Source: Paraniabella defluvii
GTDB lineage: Bacteria > Bacteroidota > Bacteroidia > Chitinophagales > Chitinophagaceae
DNA length: 64,000 nucleotides
Direction of reading: 5' to 3'
Assembly: GCA_019316985.1 (NCBI GenBank)
Contig: CP079215.1
Span: 2,232,001 to 2,296,000, forward strand
Shown here piece after piece: positions 45,173-48,283 of this stretch; the stretch's first letter is position 1; every line of letters begins with the position of its first letter. The notes beneath the pieces are model-generated. The model made no database searches and was not told where the DNA came from. It saw only the letters and a program-made list of their open reading frames with translations. The translations under genes were made by a program, and so were the position numbers.

Positions 45173-45632
45173 ATGGCTACACATTTAAAGGAAGGGCAAA
45201 AAGCCCCGGCATTTACAGGCAAGGACCAGAACGGCAATAAAATATCTTTATCGCAGTACAAACAAAAAAAAAGTAGCCTTGTATTTTTACCCGCAGGACC
45301 TGACACCCACCTGCACCACAGGCATGTAATCTCAGGGATAATTTTGGATTATTACAGCAAAAGGTATTTCCATTCTGGGAGTTAGCCCCGACGACGCAGC
45401 CAAACACAAACGGTTCGAAGAGCGTAATTCACTTCCGTTTCCGCTTATCGCTGACACGGATCATAAAATATTAGAGAAGTATGGCGTATGGGGTGAAAAG
45501 CAAATGTTTGGTCATAAGTATATGGGAGTATATCGTACTACTTTCTTAATTGATGAGAAAGGCATTATCAAAAAGATCTTCCTGAAGCCTAAAAGCAAAC
45601 AGCACGCAGAAGAGATTATTGAAAGTCTTTAA
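45173..45632 (+). CDS. bcp: Thioredoxin-dependent peroxiredoxin, Bcp type
   Basis: Reduces hydroperoxides. About 153 residues: [16 protein letters not shown] at the start, the peroxidatic Cys in [15 protein letters not shown] with the resolving Cys five residues later (Bcp/PrxQ pattern), [13 protein letters not shown] and [15 protein letters not shown]. Frame breaks lie near 45272 and 45325. Same strand as the M23 gene, 30 bp downstream. Its stop overlaps the convergent Uma2 stop by two bases. Confidence 0.85.
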
Positions 45633-46212
45633 GCTGATAAACCAGCGCCATTATAAATATCCCTGATGTCAATGGAAATGTTCAAAGCTTCGATGGTTAA
45701 CAGATCTTCCTGTGCTTTATACTCTTCCAGTTCCCAATGCCCGCCGGCATTCAGCCTGAAACATTCGATATTTATTGACTCAGTGTCGATAAGTATATAT
45801 TCTTTTAATGTAGGGATATCCCTGTATAATTTAAATTTTCCACCACGGTCATAGTTTTTCGTGGATGGAGACAGGATCTCAATAAGAACTGTAGGAAGCA
45901 CTGCGGTGTCTTCATCTTCTTTTGAAGAGTTGATCTCTCCACAAATAATAGAGATGTCCGGATAGGTAAATAAGGTATTCTCTGGAATATGGATACGCAG
46001 ATCGCTTCCATAGGGTTGGCAGGGCTTGCCTTCTAAAGCAATGAAAAGTCTGCCTTGCATATTTTTTGCGATTATGTTGTGCCGTCTTCCAGCTCCGGCC
46101 ATAGCAAACACTTCCCCCTGGAAAACTCATGCTTCGTATCGGAGGCTTTCTCCATAGCCAGGTACTCGGCTATGGTATAAAAAGGCTTTTTGATAGGCTG
46201 GTGCAGGTTCAT
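45629..46212 (-). CDS. Uma2 family (DUF820) restriction-endonuclease-fold protein
   Basis: About 194 residues with a PD-(D/E)xK nuclease core: [11 protein letters not shown] holds the Asp, and [22 protein letters not shown] holds the Glu-x-x motif and Lys. Members are common in Bacteroidetes and cyanobacteria, often in multiple copies, with unknown biological role. Frame breaks near 46180 and 46130 split the N-terminus; the restored start is [11 protein letters not shown] at 46212. Confidence 0.75.
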
Positions 46213-46368: not shown

Positions 46369-47361
46369 TTATATCAGGTTGTTGGCTACCAGGTATTCAG
46401 CAATCTGAACAGCGTTAGTAGCGGCACCTTTACGCAGATTATCACTCACAATCCACATATTTAAAGTTTTAGGTTGTGTTTCATCGCGGCGGATACGGCC
46501 CACAAAAACTTCATCTTTTTCGTGCGCATCCATTGGCATCGGGTATTGCTGGTTGGCCAGGTCGTCTACTACCACTACACCCGGAGCAGATTCCAGCAGG
46601 TTTCTTACCTCAGCCAGTTCAAATTCATTTTCAAATTCAATATTTACACTTTCGCTATGACCGCCCATAACCGGGATGCGAACAGTTGTAGCTGTTACTT
46701 TAATATTGTCATCCCGCATGATCTTTTTGGTTTCGTTCACCATTTTCATCTCTTCTTTGGTGTAACCATTATCTGTAAACACATCAATTTGGGGAATAAC
46801 ATTTAAGTCGATAGGGTATTTGTAAGCCATTGGATAATCGCTGGCTTTATTTCTTTCACCCATCAGCTGATCTACCGCCTTCACACCTGTGCCTGTTACG
46901 CTTTGGTAGGTTGAAACCACTACACGTTTAATTTTATACGCTTTATGCAAAGGCTGGAGCGCTACTACCATCTGGATGGTAGAACAGTTGGGGTTGGCGA
47001 TGATCTTATCATTAGTAGTCAGGATATCTGCATTGATCTCAGGTACCACCAATGGTTTGGACGGGTCCATTCTCCACGCGGAAGAGTTATCTACCACTGT
47101 GATACCTGCAGCAGCGAACTGTGGCGCCCATTCGGTAGAAGTGCCGCCGCCTGCAGAAAATAATGCTACTGCAGGTTTTGCTGCAATACCATCTGCCATG
47201 CTTACCACTTTATATTTTTTTCCTTTAAACTCTACTTCTTTACCCACACTTCTTTCAGATGCTACCGGAACCAGTTCCGTAACCGGAAAGTTTCTTTCAG
47301 CCAATACCTGCAACATTTTGGTGCCCACAAGGCCGGTGGCGCCTACTACTGCAACTTTCAT
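46369..47361 (-). CDS. asd: Aspartate-semialdehyde dehydrogenase
   Basis: Makes aspartate semialdehyde, the branch point to lysine/diaminopimelate, threonine, methionine and isoleucine. A 330-residue intact protein: NADP motif VAVVGATGLVGTKMLQVL, FSAGGGTSTEWAP, the catalytic Cys in NPNCSTIQMV, VSTYQSVTGTG, and the substrate-binding RIPVMGGHSESVNIEF with catalytic His. Preceded on the same strand by a 140-nt leader with an open reading frame for a short peptide and a terminator (47386-47500), which suggests attenuation control. Monocistronic by its flanking terminators. Confidence 0.92.
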   Translation of the reverse strand: MKVAVVGATGLVGTKMLQVLAERNFPVTELVPVASERSVGKEVEFKGKKYKVVSMADGIAAKPAVALFSAGGGTSTEWAPQFAAAGITVVDNSSAWRMDPSKPLVVPEINADILTTNDKIIANPNCSTIQMVVALQPLHKAYKIKRVVVSTYQSVTGTGVKAVDQLMGERNKASDYPMAYKYPIDLNVIPQIDVFTDNGYTKEEMKMVNETKKIMRDDNIKVTATTVRIPVMGGHSESVNIEFENEFELAEVRNLLESAPGVVVVDDLANQQYPMPMDAHEKDEVFVGRIRRDETQPKTLNMWIVSDNLRKGAATNAVQIAEYLVANNLI

Positions 47362-47385
47362 TTTTTTATTTTTGGTTTTAGATAT

Positions 47386-47414
47386 AAAAAAAGCCTTCCG
47401 TATTTACGGAAGGC
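47386..47414 (-). terminator. Leader terminator (attenuator) upstream of asd
   Basis: On the minus strand, GCCTTCCGT-aaat-ACGGAAGGC, a perfect 9-bp stem extendable by two pairs, followed by seven T. It ends 24 bases before the asd ATG and points toward it, so it would stop transcription before the gene. It is not the end of any upstream gene on this strand: none lies there. Confidence 0.85.
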
Positions 47415-47459
47415 CTGTTAAAAATTTATGTTACACACACAAAAACTACAACCTTCCGT
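47406..47459 (-). promoter_or_regulatory. Predicted antiterminator of the asd leader
   Basis: The segment ACGGAAGG (47459-47452) can pair perfectly over 8 bases with CCTTCCGT (47413-47406), the 5' arm of the terminator. The two structures are mutually exclusive. The upstream arm overlaps the stop codon of the leader peptide, so a ribosome finishing the peptide would cover it and permit termination. Confidence 0.7.
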
Positions 47460-47500
47460 TACGGATGTTTCTTAATCTTTGTATGTTTCTTTATTGTCAT
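47459..47500 (-). CDS. Putative asd leader peptide (MTIKKHTKIKKHP)
   Basis: A 13-codon frame, ATG at 47500-47498 and TAA at 47461-47459. Composition: five Lys, two Thr, two Ile, two His, one Met, one Pro; so 10 of 13 codons specify Lys, Thr, Ile or Met, the amino acids made from aspartate semialdehyde. The ATG is seven bases after the -7 box, so initiation would be leaderless or nearly so; no Shine-Dalgarno is present. Its position relative to the antiterminator is as expected for a ribosome-sensed attenuator. Translation is inferred. Confidence 0.6.
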   Translation of the reverse strand: MTIKKHTKIKKHP

Positions 47501-47507
47501 CGGGCTG

Positions 47508-47538
47508 CAAAAATAGATCGATGACTGAAATCAACAAA
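47508..47538 (-). promoter_or_regulatory. asd promoter
   Basis: On the minus strand, TTTG (47538-47535), a 19-base spacer, then TATTTTTG (47515-47508): an exact match to the Bacteroidetes -33/-7 consensus. The predicted transcript start is at or just before the leader-peptide ATG. Confidence 0.7.
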
Positions 47539-47666
47539 ATATTTTTTCAAATGGGTTGGTTTCTTTAACGTTGGTTTAGCGAATCCTTTAAAGAATTTCT
47601 CAGTAAAAGTACAGGGAACTTGTTGCGAATGGATTTACAGACGCGTTTAATAATTAAAACTAACAT

Positions 47667-48283
47667 ATGAAAAAACTAGGCTGCTTTTACCTCATGCTAT
47701 TTGCGATTGTTGTTGCTGACGCTCAAACTGGGTTTGACAAGAGTTCAAAACTTGGGATTGTATTGGGTGCAGGAAACGCAGATATCACTAAATTCAAGTC
47801 ATTGTACGGAAGCGGAGGACGTGACGGGAAAGGGTATTTTGTTGCGGGTATCAGTTACATAAAACCGCTTAAAAAATGGTTCTCATTTGAAACAGGATTG
47901 GAATACAGTCATTATAAAATAAAAGCCAGCAGCGCACCCATGCCCGAAATGTGGTATTGGGATACCGAAGCTTCTTTGATTACGATGCCGGTAAATGCAA
48001 GATTTAATTTTTTGAAATATTTCTACGGGCAGGGAGGTTTACTTTTTGATATTGATATCTCTAAAAAAGATGACATTGATAAACAAACTGGTATAGGCGT
48101 CAATCTCGGTCTGGGTGCTCAGTATAATTTCAGGGAGGGCTGTCTTTGTTCCTTAATCCTTATATCCGACACCATGGCCTTATTGCGTTTGATCCACCCC
48201 GGTCAATTTTTTCAAATGATATGATCCGGGAATCGGGTGTGAAATTGGGGATATTATATGCTTTGAAAAAGGGTAATAACTAA
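47667..48283 (+). CDS. Porin-like outer-membrane beta-barrel protein
   Basis: About 205 residues with signal peptide (MKKLGCFYLMLFAIVVADAQ). Alternating strands such as SFETGLEYSHYKIKAS and LITMPVNARFNFLKYFYGQGGLLFDI match the PorT/OmpA-like small-barrel group (PF13568-type). The restored end SGVKLGILYALKKGNN is a typical final strand region. One frame break lies near 48138. Function unknown. An inverted repeat GCGCAT/ATGCGC (48296-48318) follows but lacks a T run. Confidence 0.65.

Follow-up and report, generated by a model that had tools for sequence, protein, structure and literature searches.

A probable ribosome-mediated attenuator with a lysine- and threonine-rich leader peptide precedes asd in Chitinophagaceae

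The leader of the asd gene (aspartate-semialdehyde dehydrogenase) of Paraniabella defluvii is very probably a ribosome-mediated transcription attenuator, with a near-leaderless start, that senses lysine (and threonine). It lies on the minus strand of a 64,000-nucleotide stretch of contig CP079215.1 (positions 2,232,001 to 2,296,000; hereafter the window, in whose own coordinates all positions are given). Judged by its sequence, this leader is a ribosome-mediated attenuator by every anatomical criterion tested: a short upstream ORF contains codons for end products of the pathway (Lys, Thr), an intrinsic terminator stands between this ORF and the gene, an antiterminator excludes that terminator, a further hairpin (1:2) overlaps the ORF and, on anatomy only, the stop codon is placed so that a ribosome finishing the peptide would cover segment 2. 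The features of the locus are the following:

47535-47538, minus strand: -33-type promoter box TTTG, read directly (consensus as in PMC7366714)
47508-47515, minus strand: -7-type promoter box TATTTTTG, 7 nt upstream of the leader ATG
47459-47500, minus strand: leader peptide ORF MTIKKHTKIKKHP plus stop (ATG at 47500, TAA at 47461-47459)
47473-47486, minus strand: segment 1, within the leader ORF, partner of segment 2 (from the fold, helices 1-2 of the model and the swap test)
47435-47459, minus strand: segment 2, in which ACGGAAGG (47459-47452) pairs with segment 3 and TAGTTTTTGTGTGT (47448-47435) with segment 1
47406-47416, minus strand: segment 3, the 5' arm of the terminator (from the fold and the pairing check)
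47391-47401, minus strand: segment 4, the 3' arm of the terminator (helix 3 of the model)
47386-47392, minus strand: T run of the intrinsic terminator, read directly
46369-47361, minus strand: asd, 330 aa, the putatively regulated gene (NCBIfam and Pfam)

The gene is a true asd, since its product scores 444.6 bits against NCBIfam asd_B (cut-off 324.2); the Pfam domains Semialdhyde_dh and Semialdhyde_dhC are both present. The next gene on its 3' side, on the same strand, encodes a Uma2-type putative endonuclease (45629-46111) unrelated to the pathway. A first-pass annotation of the window had described a TTTG box, a spacer of 19 bases, TATTTTTG and an ORF beginning seven bases further on, and this arrangement was confirmed base for base on the minus strand. 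The same holds for its stop codon overlapping ACGGAAGG and for its terminator with a T run, of which the stem comprises 11 pairs (47416-47391) and the T run is separated by 24 nt from the asd ATG (47361). The encoded peptide, M T I K K H T K I K K H P, has Lys, Thr, Ile or Met at 10 of its 13 codons, as had been claimed.

Intergenic terminators are common, and the stem upstream of asd might simply terminate a neighbouring gene constitutively, the ORF before it having arisen by chance. The 5' neighbour of asd, an outer-membrane beta-barrel gene (47667-48224), is however divergent and therefore unable to use this terminator, and the ORF, the antiterminator and the 1:2 hairpin are conserved together with it, as described below; we find a constitutive terminator hardly credible here and retain the attenuator. 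The asd gene itself appears to stand alone, with no pathway partner adjoining.

The leader RNA of the window folds with an energy of -37.2 kcal/mol, compared with -18.4 +/- 3.2 for 200 shuffled sequences (z = -5.9). As stated in the first-pass annotation, ACGGAAGG, which overlaps the stop codon, is the exact 8-base complement of CCTTCCGT (47413-47406) in the 5' arm of the terminator. The fold contains in addition a hairpin between ORF bases 47486-47473 and bases 47448-47435, so that segments 1 to 4 give two exclusive arrangements, either 1:2 together with 3:4 or 2:3 alone, segment 3 being common to 2:3 and 3:4. The two pairings proposed at first, antiterminator and terminator, are thus both present and mutually exclusive, and the 1:2 hairpin that had been missed completes the classical model.

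An alignment made with MAFFT (A1) took in 55 of the 77 detected leaders. The structure computed from it with RNAalifold was rejected; it recovered the terminator alone, because two terminator length classes were misaligned. The structure was therefore set by hand from a seed of 28 of the 37 majority-class A1 sequences (A2), and the covariance model R1 (28 leaders, 20 pairs) was built. On A4, an alignment of 91 model matches (redundant copies of five loci omitted) that is fitted to, and favours, the R1 structure, and against shuffles that ignore relatedness, 88.5% of the cells of the terminator and the 1:2 helix are paired and both partners have changed in 18 of the 20 pairs; the covariation score reaches 0.302, compared with 0.167 for shuffled (0/500) and 0.016-0.101 for slid alignments. 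For the terminator helix taken separately (helix 3), 98.9% of the cells are paired and 7 of 8 pairs have changed on both sides. The antiterminator 2:3, whose pairs were named by the analyst on A4 itself, is paired in 86.8% of the cells and scores 0.167 against 0.130 for the shuffles (0/500); three of five covariation measures lie beyond all 500 shuffles and two fail to beat them (176/500 and 174/500).

The swap test depends little on alignment: it compares the pairing energy of a leader's own segments with that of segments exchanged between species, again ignoring relatedness. It gave z = -11.5 for 1:2 and -12.2 for 3:4 with 63 representatives, and z = -5.1 for 2:3 with 62 (L134, which has no letters in segment 2, was left out of this repeated swap), while the five control pairings (1:3, 1:4, 2b:3, 2b:4 and 2a:4) remained between -1.0 and +1.2. 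An earlier version, run on 61 representatives that had been selected for a 2:3 match, gave -12.5, -18.5 and -8.2 for 1:2, 3:4 and 2:3, with controls from -0.5 to +0.2. By these comparisons, each of the three helices has undergone compensatory change, with a weaker signal for 2:3 than for 3:4. The check in relatives that the first-pass annotation had suggested therefore came out in its favour: relatives retain the short ORF with its Lys/Thr bias, the terminator and both pairings, and the pairings co-vary. An ACATAAA-like motif lies outside every helix in the spacer between segments 2 and 3 (47431-47425 in the window) and is nearly constant, its ATA being nearly invariant in A1; it is a possible RNA polymerase pause element.

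Asd is encoded in all 17 genomes of the genus that were examined, and at each of the 17 loci the R1 match and the layout of the leader are kept. An even sample of 79 Chitinophagaceae genomes contained an Asd match in 77; among the 76 loci examined (a 92-residue fragment was omitted), 55 have an R1 match upstream of asd and 21 have none, including L170 with 100 masked bases in this region. Searching the genomes directly with R1 returned matches in 58 of the 79, with the asd element in 55 and only weak matches away from asd in three (G036, G046 and G060). In a set of 80 named asd loci, three of which (L063, L070 and L099) have less than 250 nt upstream of the gene, R1 matches of at least 50 bits were found at 26, five of these being duplicates of loci included before. 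The matching records comprise Niastella, Flavihumibacter, Filimonas, Limnovirga, Sediminibacterium roseum and Parafilimonas, as well as one (L077) of four records of Chitinophaga pinensis. No match of this strength was obtained in the same set for Chitinophaga sp. CF118, Sediminibacterium sp. MAG03 or the records of Mucilaginibacter, Pedobacter, Sphingobacterium, Spirosoma, Dyadobacter, Hymenobacter and Algoriphagus. Outside Chitinophagaceae, R1 was compared with 61 loci that belong to other families within the order, class or phylum and form part of a longer list of places; none passed an E-value of 0.001 (0/25 and 0/10 in the order search, 0/26 in the phylum search). From the matches within the family and their absence among these outside loci, the element therefore belongs to a large part of Chitinophagaceae. 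Opposite-strand R1 matches, which occur at the palindromic terminator, were discarded as artefacts.

Codons were counted in 89 of the 91 leaders, L007 and L128 being dropped since their ORFs do not begin at the aligned ATG column. The ORFs encode 13-22 residues, among which the motif KHTKxTKK recurs, with 3-6 Lys in all 89 and at least one Thr in 82 (none in seven); overall Lys makes up 27.0% and Thr 13.1% of the residues, and the two Lys codons are used equally (AAA 199, AAG 198). Over the same length the +1 frame is open in 4/89 leaders and the +2 frame in 36/89. Two codons located past segment 1, outside any helix, specify Lys in 81 and 72 of 86 in-frame leaders, and their third base changes between A and G. 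Relative to GGAAGG, counted from its first G, the stop codon begins at -6 to -2 in 35 of the 89 leaders and at +7 to +19 in the other 54, with no stop codon between these two classes.

A strong fold followed by a terminator would also suit an element that works independently of translation, such as a lysine riboswitch-like metabolite-binding RNA, a T-box or a terminated small RNA. At the window leader (46800-48200 searched), however, every Rfam match stays below its gathering score, and the 8 obtained with E up to 5 include neither the lysine riboswitch nor the T-box; RF01859 Phe_leader, for instance, has 23.4 bits for a cut-off of 55. The ORF of 13-22 residues and the confinement of the stop codon to two position classes in 89/89 leaders likewise speak against such an element, which we consider highly improbable, and favour a leader that is translated.

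The geometry of a translating ribosome was modelled by folding the nascent RNA after removal of the stretch covered by the ribosome, which was taken to extend 12 nt past the first base of the A-site codon. In the model, the mean 2:3 index is 0.43 for the free RNA, 1.19 with a ribosome stalled at the best codon and 0.00 with a ribosome at the stop codon. Individually, 89/89 leaders stay below 0.3 for a ribosome at the stop and 88/89 reach at least 0.7 for a stall at the best codon; without a ribosome, the index is at least 0.3 in 39/89, and the modelled ribosome-free fold is cleanly 'off' in some species but not in all. The leader of the window gives 0.03 free, 1.2 stalled and 0.00 at the stop. 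Calling permissive those codons at which a stall yields an index of at least 0.7, we obtained 937 permissive and 534 other codons. Lys accounts for 35.6% of the former and 11.8% of the latter, Thr for 17.6% and 5.1%, and Ile for 9.5% and 6.4%, while Met represents 5.1% of the permissive codons. Since Lys and Thr are concentrated at permissive codons and Ile is only slightly commoner there, the model suggests that the control residues are probably Lys, then Thr, rather than Ile. The Lys/Thr/Ile control codons of the first-pass annotation are therefore upheld for the first two residues rather than for Ile, which, together with Thr, would be read by a separate thrA leader in the genus (see below).

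A TAnnTT[TC]G box is present 3-14 nt upstream of the leader ATG in 79 of the 91 loci, compared with 33 of 1820 control windows; the strict -7 box is absent from the remaining 12. In 61 of the 79 box-bearing loci the distance from box to ATG is 7-9 nt, and among the 79 a TTTG located 19-20 nt upstream of the box was counted 69 times. In Bacteroides thetaiotaomicron, the centre of the -7 element lies at -7 relative to the start site (PMC7366714). The transcript of the asd leader would therefore start about 0-6 nt upstream of the leader ATG, and such a promoter, very close to the start codon, would make the leader ORF nearly leaderless. This is unusual in the phylum insofar as only about 3.7% of 5' UTRs are shorter than 10 nt in B. 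thetaiotaomicron (PMC7366714) and leaderless mRNAs represent 5.5% in Flavobacterium psychrophilum (PMC9723704). The hisG leaders of the genus share the near-leaderless start, with a TATATTTG-like box right before the ATG in 12 of 14.

Similar leaders precede other amino-acid genes. In the genus, the ORF upstream of thrA contains a Thr run with Ile in all nine loci read, e.g., MQVTYTHTTAIILVVSTTTTTTITTTR; ten loci were taken and the tenth, from the genome of the window, gave no usable frame. This genome has a listed completeness of 72%, and its thrA and DHDPS-like genes are in pieces and its hisG frame is short, which suggests that the assembly carries uncorrected sequencing frameshifts. GC-rich inverted repeats were seen by eye after the thrA leaders (L232-L238, L240 and L241). 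The thrA leader is a separate putative attenuator of the same genus, reading Thr with Ile. Upstream of hisG, the motif HxHHH was found in all 14 loci scanned (L286-L299), e.g., MKNLVHIHHHFAYLPK, and among the 79 family genomes the asd-trained R1 also matches hisG leaders in six, with runs of 3-4 His; in one of them (L333), hisG starts 491 nt beyond the leader. The hisG leaders (L286-L299, L333, L336, L337, L339, L343 and L344) have, by eye, a similar layout with a GGCTTAC/GTAAGCC-type terminator.

R1 also matches upstream of dapA in four genomes of four genera (L329, L330, L331 and L332; 68-90 bits), with the leaders MLMIKKNTKRSKKHSQCTEG (G044), MNLIKKYSSKKNISEREDA (G039), MQNIQKHTKQVKTISIQGKG (G018) and MTMIKKYNKVSKKRSILQEG (G051). 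In these few cases 4-5 Lys are kept and Thr is down to 0-2, and the dapA leader is perhaps a copy of the putative asd leader. Such leaders are rare (4/79 family genomes by R1). A scan of dapA upstream regions (30 loci entered, two of them without a start found) detected a leader at L345 and L357 alone among the 28 loci read, neither of them a new case; most of the other dapA genes follow a reading frame that we take, from its motif, to resemble accA. In the genus of the window no Lys leader was seen by eye before dapA at 17 loci (one of which, L272, is probably a paralogue). Gene naming by NCBIfam among the sibling matches of R1 was obtained for one DapA and one HisG. A weak 44-bit match (L334, G046:C1:704331-704469) precedes a PLP aminotransferase gene of uncertain substrate, with the leader MMKINTEYKRNKRSYLLG, in a genome whose own asd has no leader. 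Other weak matches (L335, L338 and L340-L342) were not counted, no leader before a biosynthetic gene being read there.

The leader residue thus follows the pathway (Lys, Thr/Ile, His), as amino-acid sensing predicts. This bears on another explanation, in which the ribosome is stalled by the basic nascent peptide KHTKxTKK itself, or upon a general translation defect, irrespective of lysine or threonine supply. The peptide indeed varies less than a plain Lys/Thr bias would lead one to expect. Its constant His-Thr-Lys codons are nevertheless paired in helix 1:2, and their constancy is therefore explicable by RNA structure; moreover, the sibling leaders keep the layout and exchange the residue (His at hisG, Thr/Ile at thrA), and Lys is retained at the two unpaired codons despite their third-base changes. 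Stalling by the peptide itself is consequently improbable, and we favour a leader sensing amino-acid supply.

From this anatomy, its conservation, the covariation of the three helices and the pathway match of the sibling leaders, we infer how start site, translation, stalling and regulatory response would be connected. The transcript would begin 0-6 nt upstream of the leader ATG, and a ribosome would load at once on the near-leaderless ORF. With ample charged tRNA-Lys and tRNA-Thr, it would reach the stop codon and cover the GGAAGG of segment 2; segment 3 would then pair with segment 4 and RNA polymerase would terminate before asd. If lysine (or threonine) were short, the ribosome would stall on Lys or Thr codons, occupying segment 1 and blocking the 1:2 hairpin, and segment 2 would take segment 3, preventing the terminator and allowing transcription of asd. 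Release of the ribosome, or a lack of translation, would leave the 1:2 hairpin to favour termination. The asd gene is thus probably read only when a ribosome stalls for want of lysine or threonine.

A lysine-reading leader peptide would show tight coupling of transcription and translation in a phylum largely without Shine-Dalgarno initiation, and the asd leader would be a natural reporter for the way in which leaderless initiation and RNA polymerase stay in step in Bacteroidota. The covariance model R1 finds the element in 55 of 79 sampled family genomes.

Lysine-pathway genes are usually described under the control of lysine riboswitches, T-boxes or repressors. Searches of open-licence papers turned up no title dealing with a leader peptide of asd or dapA in Bacteroidota, and publication elsewhere is possible. 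We give even odds to the proposal that this is the first lysine-sensing ribosome-mediated attenuator, in which a KHTKxTKK-type peptide would integrate the supply of Lys and Thr where the aspartate pathway branches; in some genera it would have been copied to dapA, and it would be part of a near-leaderless set (asd, dapA, thrA and hisG) that would do in Chitinophagaceae the work of riboswitches and T-boxes. In F. psychrophilum, of the same phylum, 'strong clues' for leader-peptide attenuation before amino-acid biosynthesis operons have been mentioned; the passages on these suspected attenuators name no gene, and the word 'asd' is absent from the main text of that article (PMC9723704).

The asd leader shares with the trp, his, thr, phe, ilv and leu attenuators an ORF rich in codons for the product, the alternative pairings 1:2, 2:3 and 3:4, and a terminator before the first gene. 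It differs from these operon attenuators in preceding a single branch-point gene (for Lys, Thr, Ile and Met), in its probable control residues, Lys and Thr, and in its near-leaderless start, Bacteroidota promoter and lack of an Rfam match above cut-off. The lysine riboswitch (L-box) and the lysine T-box also act by premature termination of lysine-pathway genes, but they sense lysine or tRNA directly, without translation, and the asd leader matches neither. A parallel for the position of the ORF at or near the 5' end of the transcript is offered by trpL of Sinorhizobium and Corynebacterium, which encodes leaderless leader peptides, although for tryptophan and in other phyla. Compared with all these systems, the mechanism proposed for asd appears classical, while the residue, the genes and the lineage appear to be new.
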